From the NCBI RefSeq assembly GCF_009687845.1, contig NZ_BLAD01000035.1:210708-274707 (forward strand): DNA of 64,000 nucleotides. Reading direction: 5' to 3'. Below the pieces are notes generated by a model. It made no database searches, had not been told where the DNA came from, and saw only the letters and a program-made list of their open reading frames with translations. Made by a program: the position numbers and the translations under genes. This stretch comes from Acrocarpospora corrugata. Lineage in GTDB: Bacteria > Actinomycetota > Actinomycetes > Streptosporangiales > Streptosporangiaceae. Shown in pieces: positions 5,116 through 37,236 of the stretch (positions are counted from its first letter, which is position 1; every line of letters begins with the position of its first letter).

Positions 5116-5160
5116 GGAGAGCCTTTGCAAGGGGGAGCGGGAACGGGACGGCGGCGGCGG

Positions 5161-23448: not shown

Positions 23449-23461
23449 AAGGCAAATCGGC

Positions 23462-24517
23462 ATGAAAAACCTATCTGTCGCGGCGAGCGTCACCCTGCTC
23501 GCGCTCGCGCTCGCCGCTTGCGGGTCCTCGGACCCCGCTCCCACCACGGCGGGCGATGGCGCCTCCGCGCCGGCCGCTGCCGCCGGAGGGAAGGTGGGCG
23601 TGGACTTCCCGCGCGCCGACTCCGACTTCTGGAACTCCTATAACAAGTACGTCCCGGAGATGGCCACCGAGGCCAGCCTCGAACTGATGCCCCCCACCAA
23701 CTCGCAGAACGACATCGCGAAGCTGGTCGCCAACACCCAGGCGCTGGTCAGCCAGGGCGCCAAGGCCATGATCATGGCCCCCCAGGACACCGGCGCCATC
23801 GCCGCCACCCTGGACCAGCTGGCCGAGAAGAAGATCCCGGTGGTCACCGTGGACACCCGCCCCGACAAGGGCAACGTCTACATGGTCGTGCGCGCCGACA
23901 ACAAGGCGTACGGCACCAAGGCCTGCGAGTTCCTCGGCGAGCAGCTCGGCGGCAAGGGCAAGGTCGTCCAGCTGATGGGCGCGCTCTCCTCGATCAACGG
24001 CCGCGACCGGGCCGAGGCCTTCCGCGACTGCATGAAGACCAAGTTCCCCGGAATCACCGTCTTCGAGGAGCCCACCGAGTGGGAGGGCACCAAGGCCGCC
24101 TCCATGCTGCAGACCCGCCTGGAGCAGCACCCCGACATCAAGGGCATCTACATGCACGCCGGCGGTGTGCACCTGGCCCCCACCCTGCAGGTGCTGAAGG
24201 CCAAGAACCTGCTCGTCCCGCCGACCGACCCCAAGCACGTCTTCGTGGTCTCCAACGACGGCATCCCGCAGGAGTTCGCCGCCATCCGGGCCGGTGAGAT
24301 CGACGCCACCGTGTCCCAGCCGGCCGACCTCTACGCCAAGTACGCGGTCTTCTACGCCAAGGCGGCCGTGGAGGGCAAGACCTTCCAGCCCGGCCCGACC
24401 GACCACGACAGCACGATCATCCAGCTCCCCAACGGGCTGGAGGACCAGCTGCCGGCTCCCCTCGTCACCAAGGACAACGTTGACGACCCCAACCTCTGGG
24501 GTAACCAGGTCAAGTAA
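23462..24517 (+). CDS. Sugar-binding lipoprotein, RbsB type (probable fucose importer)
   Basis: A 351-aa periplasmic-binding-type lipoprotein. The signal MKNLSVAASVTLLALALAAC gives the lipidated Cys at residue 20. The type-1 binding fold is shown by GAKAMIMAPQDTGAIAATLD, IPVVTVDTRPDKGNVYMVVR and VVQLMGALSSINGRDRAEAF. Start ATG 23462 has AAAGG upstream. Its stop overlaps the ATPase start (TAATG). Position after fuconate dehydratase suggests L-fucose or a related deoxysugar as ligand. Confidence 0.92.
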   Translation: MKNLSVAASVTLLALALAACGSSDPAPTTAGDGASAPAAAAGGKVGVDFPRADSDFWNSYNKYVPEMATEASLELMPPTNSQNDIAKLVANTQALVSQGAKAMIMAPQDTGAIAATLDQLAEKKIPVVTVDTRPDKGNVYMVVRADNKAYGTKACEFLGEQLGGKGKVVQLMGALSSINGRDRAEAFRDCMKTKFPGITVFEEPTEWEGTKAASMLQTRLEQHPDIKGIYMHAGGVHLAPTLQVLKAKNLLVPPTDPKHVFVVSNDGIPQEFAAIRAGEIDATVSQPADLYAKYAVFYAKAAVEGKTFQPGPTDHDSTIIQLPNGLEDQLPAPLVTKDNVDDPNLWGNQVK

Positions 24518-26010
24518 TGACATCTACTGAATTGGCGGTGGTCGAAGCGCGCGGTATCACCAAGCGCTTCGGCCCCACCGTCGCCCTCGACAACGCCGGC
24601 ATCTGCATCAGAGCCGGTGAGACCCACGCCCTCGTCGGCCGGAACGGGGCGGGCAAGTCCACCCTGGTCTCCATCCTCACCGGCCTGCAGCGCCCCGACC
24701 TGGGCGAGGTGCTCTTCGCCGGGGAGCCCGCGCCGCCGCTGGCCGACCGGGACGCCTGGCGCAGCCGGGTCGCCTGCGTCTACCAGCGCTCGACCATCAT
24801 CCCGGCGCTCACGGTCGCGGAGAACCTGTTCATCAACCGGCAGACCGAGGGCCGGCTGATCAACTGGCGCGGCCTGCGGGCCCGCGCCCAGGCCGTCCTG
24901 GACCAGTACGGCGTCGCCATCGACGCCGGCAGCCAGGCCGGGGACCTGAGCATCGAGCAGCGCCAGCTGGTCGAGATCGCCCGCGCCCTCTCCTTCGGCG
25001 CGCGCTTCATCATCCTGGACGAACCCACCGCCCAGCTCGACGGCCCGGCCATCAGCCGCCTGTTCGACCGGATGCGGGCCCTGCGCGAGCAGGGCGTCAC
25101 GATGATGTTCATCTCGCACCACCTGGAGGAGGTCTACGAGGTCTGCCAGACCGTCACCGTGTTCCGGGACGCCAGGCACGTGGTCACCAGCCCGGTGCCC
25201 CAGCTCCCGCACGACGCGCTGGTCACGGCGATGACCGGCGAGGCCACCGCCAGCTACGAGGCCCGCGTCCGCAAGGTGCCGGCCAAGGCGCCGGTGGTGC
25301 TGGCCGTCTCCGGGCTCGGACTGGCCGACCGCTTCCGCGAGGTGGACCTCAAGGTCCGGGCGGGGGAGATCGTCGGGCTCGCGGGCTCGGGCAGCAGCGG
25401 CAAGGTGGGCCTGGCCGAGAGCCTGGTCGGCCTGCGCCGCCCGGACACCGGCACGATCACCGTCAACGGCGTGACCCCGCGCCCCGGCGACGTGCCGTCC
25501 GCGCTCAAGGCCGGCCTCGGGTTCGTCCCGCAGGACCGGCATCATCAGGGCTTCGTCCCGCTGCTGTCGATCGCCGAGAACGCCACCATACCGATCGCCC
25601 ACAAGCTGGGCCGGTTCGGGACGATCTCGTCGGCGCGCCGCCGTACCACGGCGGCGGGCATGATCGAACGACTGGACATCAAGACCACCGGGCCCGACCA
25701 GCCGGTCGGCGACCTGTCCGGCGGCAACGCGCAGAAGGTCGTGCTGGCCCGCGCGCTGGCCGACGACCCGTCCGCGCTGGTGGTGATCAACCCCACCGCC
25801 GGGGTGGACATCAAGGCCAAGCGGGCGCTGCTCGGCTCGGTGGAGGACGCGGCGGCCCGCGGCGCGGGCGCCATCCTGGTCTCCGACGAGCTGGACGACC
25901 TGCGCATCTGCGACCGGGTGCTGGTCATGTTCCACGGCAGAGTGACGAAGGAATTGCCACGAGGCTGGACCGATGGCGAACTCGTGGCGGCGATGGAAGG
26001 TATCGACTAA
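24517..26010 (+). CDS. Sugar ABC transporter ATPase, RbsA/MglA type (two domains)
   Basis: A 497-aa tandem ATPase of a CUT2 importer. Domain 1 has Walker A GRNGAGKST (~residue 42), signature LSIEQRQLVEIARAL and Walker B FIILDEPTAQLD. Domain 2 (~265-497) has a modified P-loop GSGSSGKVG and a good signature LSGGNAQKVVLARAL. Its Walker B reads LVVINPTAGVD, so the usual Asp-Glu pair is replaced by Ile-Asn. The second site therefore probably cannot hydrolyse ATP, which is an exaggerated form of the asymmetry known in RbsA-type proteins. It overlaps both neighbours by one base. Confidence 0.92.
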   Translation: MTSTELAVVEARGITKRFGPTVALDNAGICIRAGETHALVGRNGAGKSTLVSILTGLQRPDLGEVLFAGEPAPPLADRDAWRSRVACVYQRSTIIPALTVAENLFINRQTEGRLINWRGLRARAQAVLDQYGVAIDAGSQAGDLSIEQRQLVEIARALSFGARFIILDEPTAQLDGPAISRLFDRMRALREQGVTMMFISHHLEEVYEVCQTVTVFRDARHVVTSPVPQLPHDALVTAMTGEATASYEARVRKVPAKAPVVLAVSGLGLADRFREVDLKVRAGEIVGLAGSGSSGKVGLAESLVGLRRPDTGTITVNGVTPRPGDVPSALKAGLGFVPQDRHHQGFVPLLSIAENATIPIAHKLGRFGTISSARRRTTAAGMIERLDIKTTGPDQPVGDLSGGNAQKVVLARALADDPSALVVINPTAGVDIKAKRALLGSVEDAAARGAGAILVSDELDDLRICDRVLVMFHGRVTKELPRGWTDGELVAAMEGID

Positions 26011-27023
26011 TGACGGACTCAGCCATGCCCGACACGCGGGCCCTCGCGCGCCCGGGAGGCGGGCTGCGACTGGGCAGGTTCCGCGACCTCACGCTGGTCC
26101 CGGTGATCGTCGTGCTGCTCATCGCCGGCTCCTTCGTGGACCCGGTCTTCCTCACCGGCGGCAACCTCACCAACGTGCTCCAGCAGCAGTCCGCGCTGGC
26201 GCTGGTGGTGCTGGCCGAGGCGCTCATCCTGATCGCCGGCAAGTTCGACCTGTCGCTGGAGTCGACGGTCGGCATGGCCCCGGCGGTCTCGGTGATGCTG
26301 GTCATCCCGGTCTCGGCCGGGGGCTTCGGCCTGGGCGTGCCCGGCGCGCTGGCGATCCCGCTGTGCCTGCTGATCGGCGCCGCGATCGGGGCCTTCAACG
26401 GCTTCCTGATCCTGCGCTTCCAGCTGTCGGCGTTCGTCGTCACGCTGGCCATGCTGATCGTGGTGCACGGCCTGCAGCTCGGCCTGACCGGCGGCAAGAG
26501 CCTGTTCGAGCTGCCGGAGTCGTTCACCTACCTGGGCGGCGCGTCCTGGTTCGGCCTGCCCGCCGCGGTCTGGATCACCGGCATCCTGTTCGCCGCCGGC
26601 ATCGCCGCGCTCGGCTACTTCCGGGCCGGCCGCTCCCTGTACGCCATCGGCGGCAACGCCGACGCGGCCAGGGCGGCGGGCATCCGGGTGGAGCGCGTGG
26701 TCTGGGTGGTCTTCATCGTCGGCGGCACCCTGGCCGCGCTCGCCGGCGTGCTGGAGACCGGCCGCCTGGGCGGCATCAGCGCCAACCAGGGCGTCGGCTG
26801 GATCTTCATGGTCTTCGCCGCGGCCGTGATCGGCGGCGTCAGCATGGACGGCGGCAAGGGCACCATCCTGGGCGCGCTCACCGGTGTGCTGGTGATCGGC
26901 CTGGTGGAGAACATCCTGACCCTCAAGGGCGTGCCCGGCGAGTGGAAGCAGCTCGTCTACGGCGGCATCATCCTGATCGCCCTCATGATCAGCCGGTTGG
27001 CCGGCGGACGAGCTCAGGACTAA
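26010..27023 (+). CDS. Sugar ABC transporter permease, RbsC type
   Basis: A 337-aa membrane protein with about nine to ten hydrophobic segments. GKFDLSLESTVGMAPAVSVM corresponds to the conserved 'GgiDLSvGs' motif of the family. GRSLYAIGGNADAARAAGIR is the conserved cytoplasmic loop. Start ATG 26010 overlaps the ATPase stop (TAATG). It completes the fucose-region importer. The ROK gene follows after 103 bases with its own palindrome. Confidence 0.93.
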   Translation: MTDSAMPDTRALARPGGGLRLGRFRDLTLVPVIVVLLIAGSFVDPVFLTGGNLTNVLQQQSALALVVLAEALILIAGKFDLSLESTVGMAPAVSVMLVIPVSAGGFGLGVPGALAIPLCLLIGAAIGAFNGFLILRFQLSAFVVTLAMLIVVHGLQLGLTGGKSLFELPESFTYLGGASWFGLPAAVWITGILFAAGIAALGYFRAGRSLYAIGGNADAARAAGIRVERVVWVVFIVGGTLAALAGVLETGRLGGISANQGVGWIFMVFAAAVIGGVSMDGGKGTILGALTGVLVIGLVENILTLKGVPGEWKQLVYGGIILIALMISRLAGGRAQD

Positions 27024-27074
27024 CCCTTGATGCGAATTCGTGATATTTCATGGGGATGTCGGGTGGAACTCGCT

Positions 27075-27088
27075 CGTGTTATAACACG
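27075..27088. promoter_or_regulatory. 14-bp AT-centred palindrome before the ROK gene
   Basis: CGTGTTATAACACG is perfectly palindromic and sits 39 bases before the GTG start of the ROK regulator in an AT-rich stretch unlike its surroundings. It is a likely autoregulatory operator. Confidence 0.55.
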
Positions 27089-27126
27089 GTTAATTATTCT
27101 CCGATAAATACAAAGAGGGGAGTGAC

Positions 27127-28419
27127 GTGTCGCAGCAACCCCCCATCCGGACCGCCGGTCTCCGGACCCAGGCGGTGGGGCACGCCTCTCTTCGCCGCGC
27201 CAATCTCGCCCTGGTGCTGCGGCACCTGCGGGACGAAGGGTCGTGTTCGCGCTCGGATGTGGCGGACGCGACCGGTCTGCACCGGGCCACCGTCTCCAGC
27301 CTGATGGCGGAGCTGATCGAACGCGGCCTGGTCCGCGAGCTCGGCACCGCCCGGGCGGGGGCCATCGGCCGCCCGCGCCGGGCGGTCGCGCTGGACGGCT
27401 CGCACGTGGGCGCGCTCGGCATGGAGATCAACGTCGACTACATCGCGGTGCACGGCATCGACCTGGGCGGCCGGGTGCTGGTGGAGCGGCGGATCGGCTT
27501 CGACGCGATGGGCGAGGGCCCGGACCGCTCCCTGGTGGAGCTGGGCCGGGTGGCCAGGAAGGCCATCGCCGAGATGCGCAGGGCCGGGGCCGCCCCCGGC
27601 GGGATCGTGGTCGCGGTCCCCGGCCTGGTCGACATCGGCCCCGGCGTGGTCACGCTGGCCCCGAACCTCGGCTGGGACGACCTGCCACTCGCCGAGCGGC
27701 TCCGCGCCGAACTCGGCGGCTTCCGCGCCCCCGTCGGCGTGGACAACGACGCCAACCTGTCCGCCCTGGCCGAGTTCACCTCGGGCGTGGCGGCGGGCAC
27801 CCCCGACATGGTCTACCTCACCGGTGAGGTCGGCGTCGGCGGCGGAATCATGGTGGGCGGCCGGCTGCTCCGCGGCGCGGACGGCTTCTCCGGGGAGGTC
27901 GGCCACCTGCCGGTCAACCCGGCGGGCCGGCGCTGCGGCTGTGGCCGTACCGGCTGCTGGGAGACCAAGGTGGGGCTCGCCGCGCTGGTGCGGGCCGCCA
28001 CCCCGGAACGGGCGTACGAGCTCGGCGCGGCAGCGTCGCCGGACCCCGAGGTTCGCATGAAGGAGATCTCCAGAGCTTTGGCGGCGGGCGAACCGCGCAC
28101 GCTGGCCGCCGTCGCGGAGGTAGGCCGATGGCTCGGGCTCGGCGGCTCGATCCTGGTCAACCTCTTCAACCCGAGAGTGATCGTGATAGGCGGATACTTC
28201 GCCCGGCTGGCCGAGCGGCTCATCCCGCCCGCGCAGGCCGAGCTGGAACGTCTGGTGGTGGCGGGCCCGGCGGCCCGTTGCCGGTTCCTCGCCTCCAACC
28301 TGGGTTTTGGCGCCGCCTCCCGCGGCGCCGCGAGCATGGTTGTCGATCACATCATGGACGATCCCGCCGCGATCGGCTTCGGGCCGGCCACTGCGCGCTC
28401 GTCTGTGGGCAGTCTGTAA
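27127..28419 (+). CDS. ROK-family transcriptional regulator
   Basis: A 430-aa repressor-type ROK protein. The N-terminal winged helix (CSRSDVADATGLHRATVSSL, ~residues 39-58) precedes the sugar-kinase-like fold. GVDNDANLSALAEFTSG and GEVGVGGGIMVGG form the sugar/phosphate-binding region. GHLPVNPAGRRCGCGRTGCW holds the ROK zinc motif (His plus Cys-X-Cys-X4-Cys). Start GTG 27127 has GAGGGGAG 5 bases upstream. It directly follows the fucose-region importer, so it may sense the imported sugar, although the recurring ATACATCSGATGTAT box does not resemble the palindrome at its own promoter. Confidence 0.9.
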   Translation: MSQQPPIRTAGLRTQAVGHASLRRANLALVLRHLRDEGSCSRSDVADATGLHRATVSSLMAELIERGLVRELGTARAGAIGRPRRAVALDGSHVGALGMEINVDYIAVHGIDLGGRVLVERRIGFDAMGEGPDRSLVELGRVARKAIAEMRRAGAAPGGIVVAVPGLVDIGPGVVTLAPNLGWDDLPLAERLRAELGGFRAPVGVDNDANLSALAEFTSGVAAGTPDMVYLTGEVGVGGGIMVGGRLLRGADGFSGEVGHLPVNPAGRRCGCGRTGCWETKVGLAALVRAATPERAYELGAAASPDPEVRMKEISRALAAGEPRTLAAVAEVGRWLGLGGSILVNLFNPRVIVIGGYFARLAERLIPPAQAELERLVVAGPAARCRFLASNLGFGAASRGAASMVVDHIMDDPAAIGFGPATARSSVGSL

Positions 28420-28423
28420 GTTT

Positions 28424-28433
28424 GCAGTACTGC
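28424..28433. promoter_or_regulatory. Short palindrome upstream of the ebo operon
   Basis: GCAGTACTGC is a perfect 10-bp palindrome in the 129 bases between the ROK stop and the ebo leader peptide. It may be an operator or chance. Confidence 0.25.
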
Positions 28434-28548
28434 CGGCGGCGGCACCCCGTCCGGCGACCGTGGTATCCGCATGACCGCAGCACCCGGCAACAAGCGCGTC
28501 GGCGCGCGCCTTGCCTGACAGATCGACTCATGTCAGGAAGGAAGTTCC

Positions 28549-28587
28549 ATGTTTCCTCACGTTTCCTCATTCCCTCAGTCGTCATGA
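28549..28587 (+). CDS. 12-aa leader peptide of the ebo operon
   Basis: ATG 28549 is preceded by a strong ribosome-binding site (AGGAAGGAAG). It encodes MFPHVSSFPQSS and stops at TGA 28585-28587, overlapping the next gene's ATG as ATGA (28584-28587). The downstream enzyme lacks its own ribosome-binding site, so this short frame probably delivers ribosomes to it. The peptide is Ser-rich (4 of 12) with two Phe-Pro pairs; whether its sequence matters for regulation is unknown. Confidence 0.6.
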   Translation: MFPHVSSFPQSS

Positions 28588-29720
28588 TGGTCGGGATCTG
28601 GTTGATCGGGGCGCGAGGCTCAGTAGCGACGACGGTGGTCGCCGGCGCGGCAGCCCTCCGGGCCGGACTGGCCCCTCCGATTGGATGTATCACTGAATCA
28701 CCCGACTTCCGGGGCGCTGGCCTGCCCGGATTCGGCCACCTGGTGTTCGGCGGCCATGACGTCACCAGCACGCCGCTGACCAAGCGGGCCGAGGAGCTGA
28801 CCCGGTCCGGGGTGATCCCGCCCCCGCTGGCCGAGCTGGTCCGGCCCGCGCTGGACGCGGCCGACAGCGAGATCAGGCCCGGCGCGACCGAGGGCGGCTC
28901 GCAGGGCGCGGTGGCCCGGCGGCTGATCGGCGACCTGGCCGAGTTCAGGGAACGCCGGGGCCTGGCCCGGGTGATCGTGATCAACGTCTCCTCCACCGAG
29001 CCGCCCGCGGCCCCCGACCCCGCGCATCTGAGCCTGGACGCGCTGGAGCAGGCGCTGGAGGGCGACATCCCGGTGCTCCCGCCCAGCTCGCTGTACGCCT
29101 ACGCGGCGCTCAGCGCCGGTTGCCCGTATATCGACTTCACCCCCTCCACCGGCGCCCGCTTACCGGCCCTGGACGAACTGGCCAGGCGGCGCGGCCTGCC
29201 GTACGCCGGGAGTGACGCCAAGACCGGCGAGACCCTGGTCAAGACCGCGCTCGCGCCGATGTTCGCGGTGCGCGGGCTGGCGGTGCGGTCCTGGTCGGGG
29301 ACCAACCTGCTGGGCGGCGGGGACGGCGCCACGCTGGCCGACCCGGCGGCCGGGGAGAGCAAGCGCATCTCCAAGGACCGGGCGCTGGCCGAGATCCTGG
29401 GCCACCAGGTCGAGGGCCGGACCCACATCGACAACGTGCCGCACCTGGGCGACTGGAAGACCGCCTGGGACCACATCACCTTCGAGGGCTTCCTCGGGGT
29501 GCGCATGTCGATGCAGTTCACCTGGCAGGGCTGCGACTCGGCGCTGGCCGCGCCGCTGGTCCTGGACCTGGCCAGGCTGATGGCCCGCGCGCACGAGCGC
29601 GGGGTGGCCGGCCCTGTGGCCGAGTTCGGCTTCTTCTTCAAGGATCCGGTCGGCAGTAACGAGCACCGCCTGCACGCCCAGTACGAGTCGCTGCGCCAGT
29701 GGCTCGGGCAGGGGGCGTGA
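28584..29720 (+). CDS. Inositol-3-phosphate synthase-like enzyme of the ebo operon
   Basis: A 378-aa protein of the myo-inositol-1-phosphate synthase family. VGIWLIGARGSVATTVVAGA at the N-terminus is the NAD-binding motif. VIVINVSSTEPP, DFTPSTGARLPAL, PYAGSDAKTGETLVKTALAP and RSWSGTNLLGG are family hallmarks including active-site Lys residues. ATG 28584 (or the adjacent ATG 28587) is chosen because it overlaps the leader stop and places the NAD motif at the start; extending upstream adds an unrelated hydrophobic stretch. Ebo clusters generally carry a sugar-phosphate cyclase (EboD, dehydroquinate-synthase-like) in this role, so this looks like a non-homologous NAD-dependent cyclase replacement. 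The real substrate is unknown. Confidence 0.85.
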   Translation: MMVGIWLIGARGSVATTVVAGAAALRAGLAPPIGCITESPDFRGAGLPGFGHLVFGGHDVTSTPLTKRAEELTRSGVIPPPLAELVRPALDAADSEIRPGATEGGSQGAVARRLIGDLAEFRERRGLARVIVINVSSTEPPAAPDPAHLSLDALEQALEGDIPVLPPSSLYAYAALSAGCPYIDFTPSTGARLPALDELARRRGLPYAGSDAKTGETLVKTALAPMFAVRGLAVRSWSGTNLLGGGDGATLADPAAGESKRISKDRALAEILGHQVEGRTHIDNVPHLGDWKTAWDHITFEGFLGVRMSMQFTWQGCDSALAAPLVLDLARLMARAHERGVAGPVAEFGFFFKDPVGSNEHRLHAQYESLRQWLGQGA

Positions 29721-29721
29721 G

Positions 29722-30552
29722 ATGGATCTCGCCTCGTTAGTCCAGCTGGTCCGGGCGCCGGCCGCGCTGACCGTGCCGGGCGACACGGTCGCGGGCGGGT
29801 CGGTCCGGCCGGGCCTGGCCGCCTCGTCGGTCTGCCTGTACTGGGCCGGGATGGCGCTGAACGACTACGCCGACCGGGAACTGGACGCGCGGGAGCGGCC
29901 CGAGCGGCCGATCCCGTCCGGGCGGATCCTGCCCGGGCAGGCGCTCGCCGTCGCCGCGGGGCTGACCACCGCCGGTGTGGCGCTCGCCGGGCTGTCCGGC
30001 GGACGCCGTGGCCTCGGCGTCGCCGCCGGCCTGGCCGGCATGGTCTGGGCCTACGACATGGGCCTGAAGAACACCGTGCTCGGGCCGGTCGCGATGGCCG
30101 CCGCGCGCGGGCTCGACGTGCTGCTCGGCGGCCCGGCCAGCAGCCCGCTGGCGGCCGCCTCGGTGGCCGCGCACACGCTCGGCGTCACCACGCTCAGCCG
30201 GGGCGAGGTGAACGGCGGCTCGGCGGTCCGCTCCGCCGTCACCCTGGCCGCGACGGGCGTGGCGGCCGGGCTGGCCGCCTGGCACATCGCCAGAGGCGGC
30301 GACCGGGTGGCCAAACTGGCCGGATTCGGGCTGCTCGCCGGGTACGCGGCGCTGGTCGGGCGGCCGCAGCTGGCGGCGGCCCGCAGCCGGGACGCCAAGG
30401 TGACCAGGTCCGCGGTCGGGCGCAGCATCATCGGGCTGCTGCCGCTGCAGGCCGCGCTCACCGCCGGGAGCGGGCGGCTCGCCCCCGCCCTCGCCCTGGC
30501 GGCCGCGCATCCGGTGGCGGCGAACCTGGCGAAGAAGGTGTCGCCGACATGA
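29722..30552 (+). CDS. eboC: UbiA-like prenyltransferase, SCO3242/EboC family
   Basis: A 276-aa integral membrane protein with about seven to eight hydrophobic segments. ALNDYADRELDARERPERPI is the first Asp-rich prenyl-diphosphate-binding motif of UbiA enzymes. The second motif region (WAYDMGLKNTVLGPVAMAAA) keeps an Asp and Lys. It should attach a prenyl chain to a polar acceptor at the membrane. The acceptor may be made by the neighbouring cyclase, aldolase/isomerase-fold and phosphatase proteins. It starts one base after the previous stop and ends in an ATGA overlap (30549-30552). Confidence 0.88.
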   Translation: MDLASLVQLVRAPAALTVPGDTVAGGSVRPGLAASSVCLYWAGMALNDYADRELDARERPERPIPSGRILPGQALAVAAGLTTAGVALAGLSGGRRGLGVAAGLAGMVWAYDMGLKNTVLGPVAMAAARGLDVLLGGPASSPLAAASVAAHTLGVTTLSRGEVNGGSAVRSAVTLAATGVAAGLAAWHIARGGDRVAKLAGFGLLAGYAALVGRPQLAAARSRDAKVTRSAVGRSIIGLLPLQAALTAGSGRLAPALALAAAHPVAANLAKKVSPT

Positions 30553-31373
30553 GGTTCGGTTACGGCACCAACGGCTTCGCCAACCATCGGCTGTCGGACG
30601 CGCTCGTCGTCATCGCCGACCTGGGCTACGAAGGGGTGGCGCTCACCCTGGACAGCGGCCATCTCGATCCGTATGGGCCGTTCCTGTCCCGGCGGCTCGC
30701 GCAGGTCGGCCGCTGGCTGGACCGGCTCAACCTGAGCCTGGTGATCGAGACCGGCGGCCGGTACGTCCTGGATCCGGTGCACAAGCACCACCCCACCCTG
30801 GTCCATCCACCGGACCAGGCGGCCCCCCGGGTCGACCTGCTGAAACGGGCGGTCCGGGTCGGGGCCGAACTCGGGGCGGAGGCTGTCTCCTTCTGGAGCG
30901 GCACCCGCCCCCCCGGCGTTTCCGACGGCTGGGACAACCTGGCCAAAGGCGTCGAAGCCGTCCTGGTCGAAGCCGAGACGTGCGGAGTCACGCTCGGCTT
31001 CGAGCCGGAGCCCGGCATGCTCGTCGACGACATCGCCGGCTACGAGCGGCTGCGCGGCATGCTCGGCCAGCCCGCCCGGCTCGGGCTCACCCTCGACATC
31101 GGCCACTGCCGGTGCAACGAGCCTGACCCGGTCCCCGACAGCGTGCGGCGGGCCGGGCCCTACCTGGTGAACGTGCAGATCGACGACATGCGCCGGGACG
31201 TGCACGAACACCTGGAGTTCGGCGAAGGGGAGATCGACTTCCCGCCCGTGCTGGCCGCCCTGGCCGAGACCGGCTACCAGGGCCTGGTCAGCGTCGAACT
31301 GCCGCGGCACAGCCACGCCGCGCCTGTTGTGGCCGAACGTTCGCTGCGTTTCCTCCGAGAGGCGGTGTCATGA
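30549..31373 (+). CDS. Sugar phosphate isomerase/epimerase-like TIM-barrel protein (ebo operon)
   Basis: A 274-aa AP-endonuclease-2/xylose-isomerase-like TIM barrel. Metal-ligand positions are visible in strand order: VIETGG (Glu), LGFEPEPGMLV (Glu), LTLDIGHCRC (Asp/His), VNVQIDDM, EHLEFGEGEIDFPPVL (a His-X-GxGxiD-type segment) and VSVELPRHSH (Glu). It probably isomerises or epimerises a sugar-derived ebo intermediate. ATGA overlaps on both sides (30549-30552, 31370-31373) tie it into the operon. It is distinct from EboE, which is a second TIM barrel downstream. Confidence 0.85.
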   Translation: MRFGYGTNGFANHRLSDALVVIADLGYEGVALTLDSGHLDPYGPFLSRRLAQVGRWLDRLNLSLVIETGGRYVLDPVHKHHPTLVHPPDQAAPRVDLLKRAVRVGAELGAEAVSFWSGTRPPGVSDGWDNLAKGVEAVLVEAETCGVTLGFEPEPGMLVDDIAGYERLRGMLGQPARLGLTLDIGHCRCNEPDPVPDSVRRAGPYLVNVQIDDMRRDVHEHLEFGEGEIDFPPVLAALAETGYQGLVSVELPRHSHAAPVVAERSLRFLREAVS

Positions 31374-32011
31374 TCCCCACCATTCGCCCGCACCTGACCG
31401 GCGACGGCGTCAACTGGCTGGACGCCGCCATCGACAAGATCCACGCCGACGCCGGGACGATCTTCGCGATCTTCCCGGCCGCCGGCCGGCGCTGCGGCCG
31501 GGGCCCCCTGGACGACGGATGGACCGTCGACCAGGTCGTCCGGGTCGCCCTGCTGCTGGAACTCCCGCTCGACGGCGAGCCGCTCGGCACGCTCCTGTTC
31601 GATCTGTACGCGCACGGCGACGCGGGGGAGCGGCTGGCCGTGCTGGCCTCGCTGGCCGCCTTCGACGACGCCGGCCGCCTCGGCGACGCCGGCCTGCCGA
31701 TCGTCAGGGACGCGCTGCGCACCAGCGACACCCGGCTGATCAGCGCCGCCATGGGCCGGTACGGCGCCGCCCGCCTGCCCGCCGACGCCTACCGGCAGGC
31801 CGTCCTGAAGTGCGTCTTCACCGGTGTGCCGCTGGCCGCGGTCGCCGGTCTGGACACGCGCGCGGACCGGGAGCTGGCCCGGATGATGGCCGACTTCGCC
31901 AAGGAGCGCGAAGCGGCCGGGCGGGTCGTGCCGCCCGACATCTGGCCGATCCTCACCAGCCACCCGGACCTGCTGGCCGGCCTGTCCTCCGACCCGAAGG
32001 GTGCGTCGTGA
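31370..32011 (+). CDS. eboA: EboA-family protein
   Basis: A 213-aa helical protein without signal or membrane segments. The C-terminal block YRQAVLKCVFTGVPLAAVAG (~152-171), followed by LDTRADRELARMMADFAKER, is the conserved EboA signature. Its molecular function is unknown; it is a defining member of ebo clusters. The start overlaps the TIM-barrel gene (ATGA) and its stop overlaps EboB (TGATG). Confidence 0.85.
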   Translation: MIPTIRPHLTGDGVNWLDAAIDKIHADAGTIFAIFPAAGRRCGRGPLDDGWTVDQVVRVALLLELPLDGEPLGTLLFDLYAHGDAGERLAVLASLAAFDDAGRLGDAGLPIVRDALRTSDTRLISAAMGRYGAARLPADAYRQAVLKCVFTGVPLAAVAGLDTRADRELARMMADFAKEREAAGRVVPPDIWPILTSHPDLLAGLSSDPKGAS

Positions 32012-32862
32012 TGCGAATCTTCGACCCGCACATCCACATGACCTCGCGGACCACCGACGACTACCGCCGCATGTACGACGCCGGCGTGCGCGCCCTGGTG
32101 GAACCCGCGTTCTGGCTGGGCCAGCCGCGTACCTCGCCGGACACCTTCGCCGACTACTTCGACGGGCTGCTCGGGTGGGAACCGTACCGGGCCGCGCAGT
32201 ACGGGATCGCGCACCACTGCGCGATCGCGCTGAACCCCAAGGAGGCCAACGACCCCCGGCTGCGCGGCGTGCTCGACCTGCTGCCGCGCTACCTGGCCAA
32301 GGACCGGGTGGTCGCGGTCGGCGAGGTCGGCTACGACGAGATGACCCCCGCCGAGGACGAGGTGCTCCAGGCCCAGCTGGCGCTCGCGCTCGAACACGAG
32401 CTGCCGGTCCTGGTCCACACCCCGCACCGGGACAAGGCGGCCGGAACCATCCGGACTCTCGACGTGGTGAAGGACTCCGGGCTGCCGCCTGAGATGATCC
32501 TGGTCGACCACCTCAACGAGATGACCGCCAAGGCGGTCGCCGACAGCGGCTGCTGGTCCGGCTTCTCCGTCTATCCGGACACCAAGATGGACGTGCACCG
32601 GATGATCGCGCTGCTCCGCCTGTACGGCACCGACCGGGTCCTGGTGAACTCGGCCGCCGACTGGGGTCACAGCGACCCGCTCAAGACCCGCGCGGTCGGC
32701 GACGCCATGCTCGCCGACGGCTTCACCGAAGAAGACGTCGACAAGGTCCTGTGGGCCAACCCCGTCGCCTTCTACGGGCGGAGCGGCCGGCTCGAACTCG
32801 ACGAGGTCAGCCCCGCCGCCGACTACGCAGGGAACACCATCAAACGGGGCGTGGCGCCGTGA
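32011..32862 (+). CDS. eboB: TatD-family metal-dependent hydrolase, EboB
   Basis: A 283-aa amidohydrolase-fold protein. FDPHIHMTSR at the N-terminus gives the HxH metal ligands. VAVGEVGYDEMTP (Glu), VLVHTPHRDK (His), ILVDHLNE (His) and LVNSAADWGHSDPL (Asp) complete the TatD-type site. ATG 32011 shares a base with the EboA stop; a GTG directly before it is also possible. It ends in a GTGA overlap with EboE. The ebo substrate is not established. Confidence 0.88.
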   Translation: MRIFDPHIHMTSRTTDDYRRMYDAGVRALVEPAFWLGQPRTSPDTFADYFDGLLGWEPYRAAQYGIAHHCAIALNPKEANDPRLRGVLDLLPRYLAKDRVVAVGEVGYDEMTPAEDEVLQAQLALALEHELPVLVHTPHRDKAAGTIRTLDVVKDSGLPPEMILVDHLNEMTAKAVADSGCWSGFSVYPDTKMDVHRMIALLRLYGTDRVLVNSAADWGHSDPLKTRAVGDAMLADGFTEEDVDKVLWANPVAFYGRSGRLELDEVSPAADYAGNTIKRGVAP

Positions 32863-34013
32863 GGTTCCGCCACTCCGACGGCTCCACCGTGCACCTCGCC
32901 TACTGCACGAACGTGCACCCGGCCGAGGACCTGGCCGGGGTGCTCGCCCAGCTCCGCGACTACGCCGGCCCGGTGCGCCGCAAACTGGGCGTGCGCCGGC
33001 TCGGGATCGGGCTCTGGCTGTCCCGCCCGGTCGCCGACGCGCTGATGTCCAGCCCCGCGGAACCGGTACGCCTCCGCGCGGCCCTCGACCGGGAGGGCCT
33101 GGAGGTGGTGACCCTCAACGGGTTCCCCTACCGGGGCTTCCACGACGAGGCGTCCGCCAAGCTGCGCGTCTACCAGCCGGACTGGACGTCGGACGAACGT
33201 CTCGACTACACCCTCGACCTGGCCAGGCTGCTGACCGGGCTGCTTCCCGATGACGTCGTCACCGGGAGCATCTCCACGTTGCCGCTGGCCTGGCGTACCC
33301 CGTGGTCGGCGGAACAGGCCGCCACGGCCGCGCGGAACCTGGACCGGCTGCGAGACGGGCTCGCGTCGCTGGCCGAGGCGACCGGCCGGACGATCAGAGT
33401 CGGGTTCGAGCCGGAACCCGGCTGCGTGATCGAGACGACCACCCAGGCGGCCGAACATCTGACCGGCCTGGATCCCGCCTATCTGGGCCTGTGCTTGGAC
33501 GCCTGCCACCTGGCCGTCGGGTTCGAGGACCCCGTCGAGGCACTCGGCCGCCTGGACGCCGCCGGGCTGCCGATCATCAAGATGCAGGCGTCCTGCGCCC
33601 TGCGGATCGACGACCCCCGCGTCGCCCACGACGAACTCGCCGCCTTCGACGAACCGCGCTTCCTGCACCAGACCCGCGAACAGGGCACACCGGGCACAGA
33701 CGACCTCGGCGAGGCGCTGGCCGGCGGCCTGCCCGGCACCTCGCCGTGGCGGGTGCACTTTCACGTGCCCCTGCACTCCGCGCCCACCGCACCCCTCGGC
33801 TCCACCCAGGACGTCCTCGACGGCACATTCCGGGCGGTCCTCGGCGGGCCGATCGCCCGAACCCACCACATCGAGGCGGAGACGTACACCTGGCAGACCC
33901 TCCCGCCCGACCGGCGCCCCCACAACCGTGAGGCGCTCGTCGACGGGATCGCCAGCGAACTCGCCTGGATCCGCGACCGCCTGATCAACCTCGGCCTCAA
34001 GGAGGAAGCGTGA
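32859..34013 (+). CDS. eboE: EboE, TIM-barrel 'metabolite traffic' protein
   Basis: A 384-aa xylose-isomerase-like TIM barrel. Start GTG 32859 overlaps the EboB stop (GTGA) and gives the typical opening MRFRHSDGSTVHLAYCTNVH. FEPEPGCVIETT (Glu), LCLDACHLAVGFE (Asp/His), IIKMQASCALRI and WRVHFHVPLHS carry likely metal ligands. EboE in cyanobacterial and other ebo clusters is linked to trafficking of a secondary metabolite, from published knowledge of the family. The C-terminus (NLGLKEEA) is duplicated just downstream by a small tandem duplication. Confidence 0.88.
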   Translation: MRFRHSDGSTVHLAYCTNVHPAEDLAGVLAQLRDYAGPVRRKLGVRRLGIGLWLSRPVADALMSSPAEPVRLRAALDREGLEVVTLNGFPYRGFHDEASAKLRVYQPDWTSDERLDYTLDLARLLTGLLPDDVVTGSISTLPLAWRTPWSAEQAATAARNLDRLRDGLASLAEATGRTIRVGFEPEPGCVIETTTQAAEHLTGLDPAYLGLCLDACHLAVGFEDPVEALGRLDAAGLPIIKMQASCALRIDDPRVAHDELAAFDEPRFLHQTREQGTPGTDDLGEALAGGLPGTSPWRVHFHVPLHSAPTAPLGSTQDVLDGTFRAVLGGPIARTHHIEAETYTWQTLPPDRRPHNREALVDGIASELAWIRDRLINLGLKEEA

Positions 34014-34073
34014 ACTCTCTGGTGGCCAACCCCGGACTTAAGGAGGAGGCATGACCGTGAAGCCTCTGGTGGT
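33991..34073 (+). repeat. Imperfect tandem duplication of the eboE/eboF junction
   Basis: Two copies, ~33991-34027 and ~34031-34073, share TCAAGGAGGAAGCGTGA / TTAAGGAGGAGGCATGA followed by CTCTGGTGG. Each copy holds the end of eboE, a ribosome-binding site and a gene start. The duplication inserted about 40 bases and left a 14-codon relic between the genes. Confidence 0.75.
34010..34054 (+). CDS. 14-aa mini-frame created by the eboE/eboF junction duplication
   Basis: GTG 34010 overlaps the eboE stop (GTGA) and has AAGGAGGA upstream. It encodes MNSLVANPGLKEEA and stops at 34052-34054, overlapping the eboF ATG. Its start echoes the EboF N-terminus (MTVKPLVV) and its end echoes the EboE C-terminus (NLGLKEEA). 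It is therefore a relic of the former junction that now bridges the two genes by stop/start overlaps. It probably has no product function. Confidence 0.5.
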   Translation: MNSLVANPGLKEEA

Positions 34074-35424
34074 CATCGACGTCGTCGGGCTCACCCCCCG
34101 GCTCCTCGAGCACATGCCCAACCTGCGCAGACTCGGCGCCCCTGCCACCCTGGGCACCGTGCTTCCCGCCGTGACCTGCTCCGTGCAGTCGACCCTGCTC
34201 ACCGGCAGACCGCCGCGCGACCACGGCATCGTCGGCAACGGCTGGTACTTCCGCGACCTCGGCGAAATCATGCTCTGGCGCCAGCACAACGGCCTCGTCG
34301 AAGGCCCGAAGATCTGGGACGACGCCCGCGCCGTCAAACCCGGCTACAAGGTCGCCAACATCTGCTGGTGGTACGCCATGGGCGCCGCCACCGAGATCAC
34401 CGTGACCCCCCGGCCGATCTACCACGCCGACGGCCGCAAATCCCCCGACTGCTACACCACCCCACCCGAACTCCGCGTCGACCTCACCCGCGAACTCGGC
34501 CGCTTCCCGCTGTTCTCCTACTGGGGCCCGAAGGCCGGCCTCCCCTCCAGCAGCTGGATCATCGCCGCCGCCCGCCGCATCCTCACCACCGAACGCCCCG
34601 ACCTCACCCTCGTCTACATCCCCCACCTCGACTACGACCTCCAGCGTTTCGGCCCCTCCGGCCCCGAGGCCATCGCCGCCGCCCGCGACGTCGACCAGGC
34701 CCTCGGCCCGCTGCTGGACGACGCCTCCGCGCTGGGGGCGACCACGGTCGTCCTCTCCGAGTACGGCATCGTCGACGTCTCCCGCCCGGTCGACATCAAC
34801 CGCGCGCTCCGCGAGGAGGGGCTGCTGTCGGTCTACCGGCAGGCGGGCATGGAGTACCTGGACCCGTGGACGTCCCGCGCGTTCGCGGTCGCCGACCACC
34901 AGCTCGCCCACATATACGTCCACGACGAGGCCGACACCGCCGCCGTACGCAAGGTGATCTCCGCCATCCCCGGCGTGGACCAGGTCCTCGACGCCGACGG
35001 GAAGGCCTCTTTCGGCCTCGACCACGCCCGCTCCGGCGAACTCGTCGCCATCGCCGACCCGGACGCCTGGTTCACCTACTACTACTGGCTCGACGACGCC
35101 CAAGCCCCCGACTTCGCCCGCGGCGTCGACATCCACCGCAAACCCGGCTACGACCCCGCCGAACTCTTCCTCAACCCCAAAGACCCCTGGGTCAAAGCCA
35201 AAGCCGGCCTCGCCCTGGCCAAGAAGGAACTCGGCTTCCGCTACACCATGCCCGTCGTCCCCCTCGACCCGTCCTGCGTCCGAGGCAGCCACGGCCGCCT
35301 CCCCGACGACCCCCTGGACGGCCCGGTCCTCCTCAGCGACGCCTCCCTGGACCAGTCCACCTACGCGGCCACCGACGTCAAGGACCTACTCCTCCGTCTC
35401 GCCGGCCTAAAAACACAAAACTGA
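34051..35424 (+). CDS. eboF: EboF, alkaline phosphatase/nucleotide pyrophosphatase-superfamily protein
   Basis: A 457-aa metallophosphatase/phosphodiesterase-fold protein. LVVIDVVGLTPRLLEHMPNL gives the first metal Asp. AVTCSVQSTLLTGRPPRDHG contains the nucleophile Thr and conserved RPPRDHG. VYIPHLDYDLQRFGPSG and VVLSEYGIVDV supply further metal ligands (family Asp/His). RGSHGRLPDD is the C-terminal metal His. No signal peptide. It would cleave a phosphate or phosphodiester from an ebo intermediate. Start ATG 34051 has AAGGAGGAGG 1-2 bases too close but coupled to the mini-frame. Last gene of the operon; the large hairpin follows. Confidence 0.88.
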   Translation: MTVKPLVVIDVVGLTPRLLEHMPNLRRLGAPATLGTVLPAVTCSVQSTLLTGRPPRDHGIVGNGWYFRDLGEIMLWRQHNGLVEGPKIWDDARAVKPGYKVANICWWYAMGAATEITVTPRPIYHADGRKSPDCYTTPPELRVDLTRELGRFPLFSYWGPKAGLPSSSWIIAAARRILTTERPDLTLVYIPHLDYDLQRFGPSGPEAIAAARDVDQALGPLLDDASALGATTVVLSEYGIVDVSRPVDINRALREEGLLSVYRQAGMEYLDPWTSRAFAVADHQLAHIYVHDEADTAAVRKVISAIPGVDQVLDADGKASFGLDHARSGELVAIADPDAWFTYYYWLDDAQAPDFARGVDIHRKPGYDPAELFLNPKDPWVKAKAGLALAKKELGFRYTMPVVPLDPSCVRGSHGRLPDDPLDGPVLLSDASLDQSTYAATDVKDLLLRLAGLKTQN

Positions 35425-35729
35425 ACAACAGTTCCCCACGGCGGCACCCCGCAGGAGTTCTTCCCGGAACTCCACAGCGGGGTGCCGCCGTGTCCGCAAT
35501 GGAGTCGCGAGGTCCCCTCCACCACCATGACCGCAGCCTGGAGAACACAGATTTCCTAAACCTGGTGTCGTTCCTACCAGAGGCGTCTCTTGATCAGGCA
35601 AAACGCTTGTGTCGTTTGGGCTTTCCCGATGCAAGGCCGACTCTTCCAGGCGATCGTGGTTTGGCCAGTGCGGAGATGCGGGGCCAAAATGGGTGTCGAT
35701 CCGGCGGGAATTGCGGCATGTCGCCGCTG
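35425..35729. other. Gap between ebo operon and merR-type gene
   Basis: The only feature seen in these 305 bases is the long hairpin at 35437-35492. The rest has no convincing reading frame, repeat or promoter. Confidence 0.5.
35437..35492. terminator. Large two-part hairpin terminator of the ebo operon
   Basis: CACGGCGGCACCCCGC (35437-35452) pairs perfectly with GCGGGGTGCCGCCGTG (35477-35492). Inside it GGAGTTC (35454-35460) pairs with GAACTCC (35467-35473). The result is a nearly continuous stem of 16 + 7 bp, probably terminating transcription from both the ebo operon and the convergent merR-type gene. Confidence 0.8.
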
Positions 35730-36146
35730 TCACTCCGCGACCGGGCCCGGGATTCCATCGGCGGCTGTGGGCGCGGCGGCCAGGGCGTCCTCCCAGGCGC
35801 GCAGGTACCTCTCGATCGCGTTCCGGTTGCGTTGGAGGACGTCGATGCGGCGTTCGATGCTGCTGAGCTGATGTCGTAGTCCGTCCAGATCCTTGACCGT
35901 CGGGCACGCCGGGGCCGGCGTTTCTTCCTTCGCGGCCTCAAGGCAGGGCAGGACCTCGCGGATCATCTCCGTCGTGAAGCCGGTTTCGAGAAGTTCGCGA
36001 ATCTGCAGGACACGGTCGATGGCGGGCTCGCCGTAGGTGCGGTATCCGTTGCCGGTCCGGAACGGGTGCAGGATGCCGACCTCTTCGTAGTAGCGAAGCA
36101 GCCGCGGCGCGACACCCGTCTTCGCGGCCAGATCTCCGATCTTCAC
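35730..36146 (-). CDS. MerR-family transcriptional regulator
   Basis: A 138-aa regulator. MKIGDLAAKTGVAPRLLRYY is the MerR winged-helix start; the wing (GNGYRTYGEPAIDRVLQIRE) follows. A dimerisation coiled coil (~80-115, QLSSIERRIDVLQRNRNAIE) ends in a short tail. A single Cys pair-like region (PCLEA, PACPT) is too sparse to predict metal binding. It is divergent from an SDR gene, and the promoter between them has the MerR-type 19-bp spacer, so it probably activates that gene in response to a small molecule. Confidence 0.92.
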   Translation of the reverse strand: MKIGDLAAKTGVAPRLLRYYEEVGILHPFRTGNGYRTYGEPAIDRVLQIRELLETGFTTEMIREVLPCLEAAKEETPAPACPTVKDLDGLRHQLSSIERRIDVLQRNRNAIERYLRAWEDALAAAPTAADGIPGPVAE

Positions 36147-36187
36147 GTCGCTCTCCTCAACCAGGTGGCCGGTGCGTCGTCGGCCGC

Positions 36188-36218
36188 TTGACCTTCACAT
36201 TAATGAAAAGGTTTAGCT
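36188..36218 (+). promoter_or_regulatory. MerR-type promoter of the SDR gene
   Basis: TTGACC (36188-36193) and TTAGCT (36213-36218) are separated by 19 bp, the over-long spacing typical of MerR-activated promoters. The spacer holds the dyad ACCTT...AAGGT (36191-36212). Confidence 0.7.
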
Positions 36219-36285
36219 TCTCCACATTCCCACCTGCTGAAGCGGGTTGATCGAGACCGCGTCAACAAGAATGTGAGAGCTAGAG

Positions 36286-37236
36286 ATGGGTTCCAGAACG
36301 AACGCAGGCAAGCCGGGCGGTGGTGGCTGGACAGCGGACCGGATGGCGGAACAGAAGGGCCGTACCTTCGTCGTGACGGGTGCGACCAGCGGGCTTGGTC
36401 TGGTGACGGCGCGCGAGCTCGCGGCGCACGGCGGCCGGGTACTGCTCGCCGTCCGTGACGCCGTACGAGGAGAAGAGGTGGCGTCCTCGCTGCGCAGGGC
36501 GTATCCGGGGGCTGAGGTGGAGGTGCGTCAGGTCGATCTGCTGAGTCTGAACTCGATTCGGCGGGCGGCGGAGGAGATCGGCGCGGAGGAGTCCGTCGAT
36601 GTGCTGGTCAACAACGCGGGCATCTCCATGGTCGGGCACTCGGTGACCGCGCAGGGTGCCGAGCGTCATTTCGCCGCGAATCATCTTGGCCACTTCGCGC
36701 TCACGGCGTTGCTGGGACCGGCGCTGCGCCGGTCGCCGGCGCCGCGGGTGGTCACCGTGACGTCGTATATGCACGAGAAGGGCGAGCTCGATCTGGAGGA
36801 TGTCGCGTGGTCGCGGAAGTACACGCCGCTCGCCGCCTACTCGGCGTCGAAGCTGGCCAACGCGGTCTTCGGGGTGGAGCTCGCCCGGCGCGAGCGGTCG
36901 TCATCGTCGCCGATCACCAGCGTTCTCGCGCATCCGGGCTACAGCAACACGCCGATGCAGAGCAAAGGCACCGGGATCACGGGGATCGTCATGCGCGTCT
37001 CCGGCAAGCTCCTCGCGCAGAGTCAGGAGATGGGAGCGCTGCCGCAGCTTTTCGCGGCGACCGAGCCCGATCTCGTCGCCGGCTCCTACATCGGGCCTGA
37101 CGGCCGGGGCGGACGATCTGGATATCCCGCACTCGTGCAGCTGTCGGCGGCGCCTCAGGATCCGGAGCTCGGCCGTCGCCTGTGGGAGCGCTCGCAGCAG
37201 CTGACCGGAATCCGCTGGCCCACCGCCGCAGCCTGA
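36286..37236 (+). CDS. Short-chain dehydrogenase/reductase (retinol dehydrogenase-like)
   Basis: A 316-aa classical SDR. TFVVTGATSGLGLVTAREL is the cofactor motif (~26-44), with an Arg after strand 2 (LAVRD) suggesting NADP. VLVNNAGISMVGH is the NNAG motif, VTSYMHEKG carries the catalytic Ser and YSASKLANAVF the Tyr/Lys. ATG 36286 or the internal ATG 36343 (MAEQKGRTF) may be the real start. It is controlled by the divergent MerR protein. The substrate is unknown; MerR/SDR pairs often handle aldehydes or xenobiotics. Confidence 0.9.
   Translation: MGSRTNAGKPGGGGWTADRMAEQKGRTFVVTGATSGLGLVTARELAAHGGRVLLAVRDAVRGEEVASSLRRAYPGAEVEVRQVDLLSLNSIRRAAEEIGAEESVDVLVNNAGISMVGHSVTAQGAERHFAANHLGHFALTALLGPALRRSPAPRVVTVTSYMHEKGELDLEDVAWSRKYTPLAAYSASKLANAVFGVELARRERSSSSPITSVLAHPGYSNTPMQSKGTGITGIVMRVSGKLLAQSQEMGALPQLFAATEPDLVAGSYIGPDGRGGRSGYPALVQLSAAPQDPELGRRLWERSQQLTGIRWPTAAA

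Follow-up and report, generated by a model that had tools for sequence, protein, structure and literature searches.

An ebo-type operon of Acrocarpospora corrugata in which an inositol-phosphate-synthase-like cyclase and a TIM barrel stand in the place of EboD

Background

Ebo operons are widespread in bacteria, and those described in the literature, among them the EDB cluster of Pseudomonas fluorescens, carry the sugar phosphate cyclase EboD (PMC5133447, PMC6282210). Nostoc is reported to need an ebo cluster for its scytonemin, and Pseudomonas to need one for repelling nematodes (PMC6282210). Ebo genes form part of the EDB cluster (PMC6282210), which a review has linked to indole products (PMC9655573). 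Prenylated lipid carriers have been discussed for the export of the scytonemin precursor (Klicki 2018, PMC6282210). In 2016, an isoprenoid-cyclitol arising from EboD and the prenyltransferase EboC was proposed (PMC5133447), in a text from which the word "inositol" is absent. The passages of PMC5133447, PMC6282210 and PMC9235831 that bear on ebo chemistry assign no natural substrate to the Ebo enzymes. Here we describe an ebo operon within a stretch of 64,000 nucleotides from the actinobacterium Acrocarpospora corrugata (contig NZ_BLAD01000035.1, positions 210,708 to 274,707; "the window"), in which a gene for a protein like myo-inositol-1-phosphate synthase (MIPS) is present in the place of EboD.

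The window shares with the EboD-type operons (PMC5133447, PMC6282210) an EboA domain, EboB (a TatD-type protein), EboE, an EboF-type protein, a UbiA-type prenyltransferase and the general layout. Unlike them, it has no EboD but a MIPS and an extra triosephosphate isomerase (TIM) barrel, and its UbiA passes the NCBI model for the SCO3242 family, not that for EboC. Our literature search, which left most subscription journals outside, found no paper describing MIPS in an ebo operon. It is already known that the actinobacterial prenyltransferase has a name at NCBI (SCO3242 family), and the single genes of the actinobacterial set are annotated there as well, as in Streptomyces sp. NBC_00987. The model that covers the window UbiA is named after SCO3242 of Streptomyces coelicolor. 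This gene ("putative transferase") and the next locus tag, SCO3243 ("myo-inositol phosphate synthase"), appear in a published gene list, used here for the comparison, as genes of the calcium-dependent antibiotic (CDA) cluster, without an ebo link in the part of that source that deals with them (PMC3610822).

An ebo operon with a MIPS-like cyclase

Families were assigned by Pfam and NCBIfam profile scores, and most genes in the compared loci by tblastn at E values of 1e-4 to 1e-5. By these means the window contains seven consecutive plus-strand genes, MIPS-UbiA-TIM-EboA-TatD-EboE-EboF, spanning 28584-35424. Since the same seven-gene order recurs in other loci, the set is not a chance assembly, and the original prediction of an ebo operon that has a MIPS-like gene and lacks EboD is borne out: all seven genes lie in one run, and no EboD was found in the operon.

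The MIPS-like cyclase (28584-29720) scores above the cut-off with both PF07994 (169.6 bits) and PF01658 (114.7 bits). Its closest solved structure, with similarity over the full length, is the Archaeoglobus fulgidus inositol-1-phosphate synthase (1u1i, 263.5 bits), with which it shares all seven active-site residues checked. These residues (D211, N241, K260, K264, K292, D318 and K353 in the window protein) are kept in 59/59 MIPS rows, of which 56 come from ebo neighbourhoods and three from neighbourhoods with TIM barrels only, L249 being left out. The A. fulgidus equivalents of three of them (N255, K278 and K367, corresponding to N241, K264 and K353) were identified from wild-type and mutant sequences in the PDB; the other four (D225, K274, K306 and D332, corresponding to D211, K260, K292 and D318) we take to be active-site residues. 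Much more distant than 1u1i, although of the same superfamily, is 6k96, a five-membered cyclitol phosphate synthase (60.9 bits), which we take to be Ari2; 1gr0, presumably the Mycobacterium tuberculosis enzyme, matches at 50.3 bits. Unlike the A. fulgidus enzyme, the window protein, whose activity is predicted, stands in an ebo operon and has a TIM partner.

The A. corrugata genome contains two MIPS genes, the one in the operon and a canonical Ino1 on another contig. The operon protein scores 47.6 bits with TIGR03450, the model for actinobacterial Ino1 of mycothiol synthesis (cut-off 638). In a tree of MIPS sequences the ebo proteins lie apart from canonical Ino1, and the genome's own Ino1 is far from the operon copy. 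An incidental household MIPS was thus rejected as an account of the gene.

The two cyclase types exclude one another

The A. corrugata assembly (9.27 Mb in 170 contigs, reported as 100% complete) contains a single gene of the dehydroquinate synthase (DHQS) family. It is AroB, located beside the genes for shikimate kinase (AroK) and chorismate synthase (AroC), and it matches EboD at 139 bits, compared with 390-407 bits for the EboDs of three other phyla and 800 bits for the query itself. The DHQS search covered 19 genomes with an EboE match, A. corrugata included. One of these (G381) has an EboD, while among the remaining 18 the scores against EboD stayed at 142 bits or below; a genome that is 82% complete (G318) gave no DHQS-family hit at all. 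A hidden EboD was therefore rejected both for A. corrugata and for 17 further EboE-matching genomes. In databases, EboD genes may carry an AroB label, as the EboD of the EboD-type locus L030 (L030:6915-8129) matches the NCBIfam model "3-dehydroquinate synthase" (NF004852) at 564 bits.

Ebo clusters were surveyed for mutual exclusivity of EboD and MIPS, as proposed with the original prediction. The strict set consists of 133 neighbourhoods, duplicates removed, in which three or more of UbiA, TatD, EboE and EboF occur. Of these, 53 contain MIPS, 74 contain EboD, none contains both and six contain neither. A TIM barrel, of either the window type or the haloarchaeal TIM1 type, accompanies MIPS in 53/53 and EboD in 0/74. 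Left out of this set were two duplicate contigs recognized by their length (L306, the same as L126, and L311, the same as L049) and 24 neighbourhoods in which no more than two of these core genes occur, which divide into eight with EboD, seven with MIPS, nine with neither and none with both. A looser count of 159 neighbourhoods gives 84, 60, 15 and 0, respectively. The six strict-set loci with neither cyclase comprise L027 (whose genome has a second, full copy), L045 (degenerate), L056, L075, L214 and L230 (cut at the contig start); for the last four, "neither" describes the neighbourhood only, the EboD search not having covered the rest of their genomes. Thus neither of the two results named beforehand as fatal to a replacement, an EboD elsewhere in the genome or clusters routinely carrying both enzymes, was encountered.

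The manner in which loci were collected bears on these numbers. Eighty loci are the best 80 of 528 confirmed when named genomes were scanned starting from an EboE of the EboD type; of these best 80, 76 have EboD and none has MIPS or a window-type TIM. Five loci came from plasmid searches; an EboE match led to one of these (L256) and MIPS matches to the other four. The EboD-type plasmid loci L260, L261, L317 and L319, together with L318, were examined apart from the count. The loci are related to one another and the counts are not independent events; for this reason trees were used. Genomes of the EboD type can have a MIPS elsewhere: four of nine searched (those of L050, L099, L105 and L126) have one each, located outside the ebo MIPS clades of the tree.

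The MIPS type in Actinomycetota

EboE (NF035939) was detected in 19/396 sampled Actinomycetota genomes, 18 of them above the cut-off. Within the window's order, EboE matches are present in 96/150 genomes, 68 above the cut-off, although some of the 96 represent only a short paralogue. The full seven-gene order was found in 16/18 loci of the phylum survey (L026-L043), the exceptions being L027, which lacks MIPS but has a full copy (L029) in the same genome, and L030, which is of the EboD type and has neither MIPS nor TIM. It was also found in 27/40 further loci (L213-L252, among which L249, L251 and L252 were fetched for other reasons). A local oddity was rejected on the recurrence of the layout. 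The original prediction had presented the cyclase as a non-homologous replacement found "here"; the replacement holds, as MIPS+TIM excludes EboD across the 133 neighbourhoods, but it is the usual actinobacterial form and not a peculiarity of this genome. In the class of G381, EboE occurs in 1/149 genomes, namely G381 itself, and no more EboD-type actinobacteria came from there.

The set is not in one piece throughout the order: in L217, L222, L226 and L214, either MIPS-EboA-TatD-EboE has no UbiA, TIM or EboF within 17 kb of it, or only UbiA-EboE-EboF is present.

Cassettes in other phyla and repeated exchange of the cyclase

Plasmid searches revealed MIPS cassettes outside Actinomycetota, which extends ebo-like cassettes to archaea. 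On plasmids of Halobaculum, Natronococcus and Halocatena, genes for TatD, TIM, UbiA, TIM and MIPS occur together with an EboF-type phosphodiesterase gene. Of five haloarchaeal plasmid MIPS records, three lie in such a cassette and one (L262), of the same MIPS clade, has no ebo genes nearby; the fifth, from Halomarina PSR21, was left out. A similar cassette, MIPS, TIM2, TatD, TIM1, UbiA and EboF, is present in L309, which belongs to the same GTDB phylum as a metagenome-assembled genome labelled Deltaproteobacteria. No EboA was seen in the haloarchaeal and L309 cassettes, which have two TIM barrels in place of EboE. Within the L309 cassette, positions 4788-5972 give a weak, sub-threshold match to the C-terminal part of squalene-hopene cyclase. 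In three further loci (L307, L308 and L310), a MIPS is accompanied by two TIMs, with no matches to the remaining cassette genes.

Plasmid 2 of Gemmatirosa kalamazoonensis (L255) carries EboG-TatD-EboF-UbiA-MIPS-TIM, with EboE on the opposite strand. There is no EboD in this plasmid operon; the other replicons of the strain were not searched. EboG has been reported in Herpetosiphon and Deinococcus (PMC5133447), and the Gemmatirosa gene was named for its likeness to the small gene preceding TatD in the loci of those genera. The Gemmatirosa TatD shares 71.5% identity with its counterpart in the EboD-type L030, against 42.7% with the window protein.

On a TatD tree of 47 rows, the cyclase requires three changes, and Gemmatirosa is nested among the EboD-type rows (support 96 and 99). 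Placement of the MIPS rows in one clade is rejected (approximately unbiased test, AU, p 1e-37), and so is a clade that joins the actinobacterial rows and Gemmatirosa (p 7e-7), although this grouping was named after the tree had been seen. An EboF tree of 46 rows requires two changes. On the TatD tree, then, the cyclase has been swapped more than once.

The TIM barrel partner

The extra TIM barrel (30549-31373; PF01261, 129.5 bits) is xylose isomerase-like and D-tagatose 3-epimerase-like. Its predicted model (predicted local distance difference test, pLDDT, 96.9) best matches MJ1311 (3wqo), a D-tagatose 3-epimerase-like protein, with a Z score of 31.9 over 252 aligned residues at 1.8 A, and by sequence, too, the best PDB match is a 3-epimerase-like protein. 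Similarity to inosose dehydratase IolE is weak (32.9 bits), a solved IolE being the second-best PDB match (37.3 bits). Residues E152, D183, H186, H219, H221 and E250 are invariant in 32/32 rows. At position 210 (window 31176-31178), 26/32 rows have Gln and six have His, the residue aligned in MJ1311, and the Gln possibly reflects a changed metal site.

MIPS and this kind of TIM also travel as a pair. On Roseomonas and Hymenobacter plasmids (L258 and L259), they occur (TIM identity 46%) with genes for YcaO and Gfo/Idh/MocA proteins, so that YcaO and oxidoreductases stand in place of the ebo genes, none of which was matched within about 15 kb. In G279 (L249), MIPS and a window-type TIM form a pair without ebo genes. 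The MIPS proteins of these three non-ebo loci constitute one group in the MIPS tree (support 98), and the YcaO/Gfo/Idh/MocA clusters are possibly a separate cyclitol pathway. The recurrence of the pair in non-ebo clusters fits the idea that TIM would act on the product of MIPS. A fusion to a xylose-isomerase-like domain reported for actinobacterial EboA entries retrieved by PSI-BLAST (PMC5133447) fits the position of TIM next to EboA in the window.

The UbiA-type prenyltransferase

The gene at 29722-30552, in the position of EboC, encodes a UbiA-type membrane prenyltransferase that had been called EboC. By the NCBI cut-offs it is instead of the SCO3242 type, scoring 326.4 bits with NF045897 (SCO3242 family, cut-off 260) and 125.2 bits with the EboC model NF035940 (cut-off 250). 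Judged by these models and by trees, PRENYLTRANSFERASE follows the cyclase type only in part. The Gemmatirosa UbiA scores 172.5 bits with the SCO3242 model and 135.6 with EboC, and the haloarchaeal UbiA 169.9 and 177.7, respectively, all below the cut-offs. In the UbiA tree, the Gemmatirosa protein clusters with the actinobacterial ones (support 85), and a single clade of all MIPS-type UbiA is not rejected (p 0.16). In vitro, EboC-type enzymes are reported to farnesylate quinolines but neither phenols nor catechols, from which UbiA-297 yielded nothing (PMC9235831).

In L237 (28-4313), the UbiA of an ebo set is displaced and lies beside genes for condensation and carrier proteins like those of nonribosomal peptide synthetases (NRPS) and for a BTAD regulator.

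A proposed pathway and its alternatives

Replacement of EboD by MIPS+TIM is well supported: the two cyclase types exclude one another, no EboD was found elsewhere in the genome, the TatD tree indicates a repeated swap, the active site is intact and the module occurs beyond Actinomycetota. The reading that we favour, with slightly better than even confidence, takes the operon for an ebo pathway whose EboD has given way to a module of MIPS and TIM, possibly including a UbiA of its own; the module makes a cyclitol of the inositol type, and UbiA prenylates this cyclitol. MIPS would turn glucose 6-phosphate, or a sugar phosphate close to it, into an inositol phosphate by oxidation, ring closure and reduction, as the intact archaeal-type active site suggests. 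The TIM barrel, perhaps along with EboE, could then epimerize or dehydrate the cyclitol, the membrane UbiA would add a prenyl chain, and EboF and EboB would remove phosphate or other groups, while EboA may keep the enzymes together at the membrane. We infer that the product is prenylated; such a prenylated cyclitol might serve as a lipid carrier or a protective amphiphile.

That one role is filled by two cyclases unrelated to each other provides independent support for the 2016 cyclitol proposal (PMC5133447). The swap suggests that a sugar alcohol in ring form is the core of the pathway, and MIPS narrows the proposed cyclitol to an inositol-type ring derived from a common sugar phosphate. More tentatively, and with the balance against it, ebo may be a system spanning bacteria and haloarchaea for a new class of membrane amphiphile, with a prenylated cyclitol as carrier or shield; the ring step would be a "plug-in", supplied by either EboD or the portable MIPS+TIM, at times with a matching prenyltransferase, and swapped more than once.

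Several observations weigh against the favoured pathway. The reactions of all of the operon proteins are predictions from sequence, and the active-site residues of MIPS do not distinguish between inositol phosphate and a different ring product. The one group of EboC-type enzymes tested in vitro is reported to farnesylate quinolines and not cyclitols (PMC9235831). A Haladaptatus plasmid (L318) has the haloarchaeal cassette (EboF, TatD, TIM, UbiA and TIM) with neither MIPS nor EboD on 12.8 kb. As to the swaps, the EboF tree allows a single origin for the MIPS type (p 0.39), the clearest case rests on one plasmid, that of Gemmatirosa, and the trees come from quick searches with SH-aLRT (Shimodaira-Hasegawa-like approximate likelihood ratio test) support and contain long branches flagged by the program. 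Finally, the L309 UbiA groups with the EboC of the EboD type (support 97), and a grouping of the Gemmatirosa UbiA with that of the EboG type is not rejected (p 0.34).

Alternatively, the MIPS-type and EboD-type operons may be parallel pathways that share the chemistry of EboA, EboB, EboE and EboF and differ in end product, making MIPS+TIM an analogue of EboD and not its functional replacement. We consider this unlikely, though far from negligible. The UbiA model differs along with the cyclase in the window, and the haloarchaeal and L309 cassettes do without a visible EboA and have TIMs for EboE. In addition, MIPS keeps its phosphate. Sugar phosphate cyclases, by contrast, are reported to lose it (PMC5133447). 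Parallel pathways do not, however, readily accommodate the strict exclusivity of the cyclases in the examined loci, or the Gemmatirosa operon, which has EboG, and whose EboB, EboE and EboF are closer to those of the EboD type, yet which contains MIPS+TIM and no EboD.

Distinctly less probable is an aromatic route, in which both cyclases would lead to an inosose-type ketocyclitol, the TIM barrels would dehydrate this to a polyhydroxybenzene, and UbiA would prenylate the aromatic ring. Such a route would suit the chemistry of the UbiA family, as relatives of UbiA prenylate aromatic rings, and a chemical route from inositol to tetrahydroxybenzene exists. The weak resemblance of TIM to IolE also leans this way, but the best match of TIM by both sequence and structure is the 3-epimerase-like protein, and UbiA-297 is reported to leave phenols and catechols unprenylated (PMC9235831). 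The farnesylation of quinolines by EboC-type enzymes (PMC9235831) fits neither the cyclitol nor the aromatic reading well.

There is very little likelihood that the operon MIPS serves only the normal supply of inositol to phosphatidylinositol or mycothiol and lies among ebo genes by chance. MIPS is a common household enzyme, the haloarchaeal L262 has a same-clade MIPS away from ebo genes, and no MIPS other than that of the operon was found in G268; however, A. corrugata has its separate, distantly related Ino1, and MIPS and TIM stay together in ebo operons of several phyla. Equally improbable is an operon for the use of a sugar or cyclitol instead of biosynthesis, suggested by the sugar ATP-binding cassette (ABC) transporter and ROK genes upstream in the window and in a same-genus relative, and by ROK, sugar-ABC, ThuA, PQQ/GSDH or Gfo/Idh/MocA genes near some other loci, as these neighbours are not steady, and a de novo cyclase with a membrane prenyltransferase fits synthesis.

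Operon layout, remaining genes and neighbours

The original prediction described the genes as overlapping by 1-4 bases and the operon as starting at 28549. Overlaps, each of 4 bases, are present at four of the six junctions (UbiA/TIM, TIM/EboA, EboA/TatD and TatD/EboE), while MIPS and UbiA are separated by 1 base and EboE and EboF by 37. Position 28549 is out of the MIPS frame, which begins with the ATG at 28584; it opens an open reading frame (ORF) of 12 codons on the plus strand (28549-28587), read from the sequence, whose TGA overlaps that ATG. A purine-rich stretch preceding this ORF is a candidate ribosome-binding site, and the placement of the stop codon could possibly permit translational coupling. 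Among 56 loci examined, an upstream ORF of equal length and similar peptide is found only in the same-genus locus L233. In 7/54 remaining loci, short ATG ORFs end over the MIPS start, a frequency for which there is no chance estimate; these differ in length and sequence, and the ORF was rejected as a conserved element. No promoter was found in a scan of 28380-36400, and scans of the window with Rfam (gathering threshold) and for tRNA gave no matches.

EboA (31370-32011, plus strand, like all genes of the operon) contains the EboA domain NF035938 (160.2 bits, cut-off 50), thereby supplying the EboA or EboG expected of an ebo operon, but falls below the cut-off of the stricter full-length family NF035937 (82.9 versus 320 bits). 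Its predicted model is all-helical (pLDDT 96.5), consistent with a possible scaffold. It has no PDB match at an E value of 0.001 or better; the best Z score, 9.9, is to helical-repeat proteins and within the chance range for helical folds. EboB (32008-32862) is a TatD-type metal hydrolase (PF01026, 52 bits) that is 40.6% identical to the TatD of L030 and has A. fulgidus AF_1765 (3guw, 98.7 bits) as its best solved relative. EboE (32859-34013), a TIM-barrel "metabolite traffic" protein, scores 412.7 bits with NF035939 (cut-off 250). The last gene (34051-35424) encodes an EboF-type phosphodiesterase/nucleotide pyrophosphatase (PF01663, 201 bits), 53.6% identical to the EboF of L030.

Immediately upstream of the operon, 23330-28419 encodes a sugar ABC transporter (binding protein, ATPase and permease) and a ROK regulator. 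The ATPase, permease and ROK have counterparts of 90-93% identity only in L233, with looser ROK and sugar-ABC matches near some other ebo loci, and these genes were rejected as part of the system. A second EboE-like protein, covering only the first ~242 positions of the model, is present in dozens of genomes of the order (L024/L044; contig C138 in A. corrugata). In L251 and L252, the short paralogue lies near HhH-GPD (MutY-like) and Clp ATPase genes, without other ebo genes. Within the ebo operon of L230 (1956-7772), a protein of 1938 amino acids with ThuA, GSDH, PKD, CBM6, GH43_C2 and FIMAH domains is encoded between TatD and EboE.

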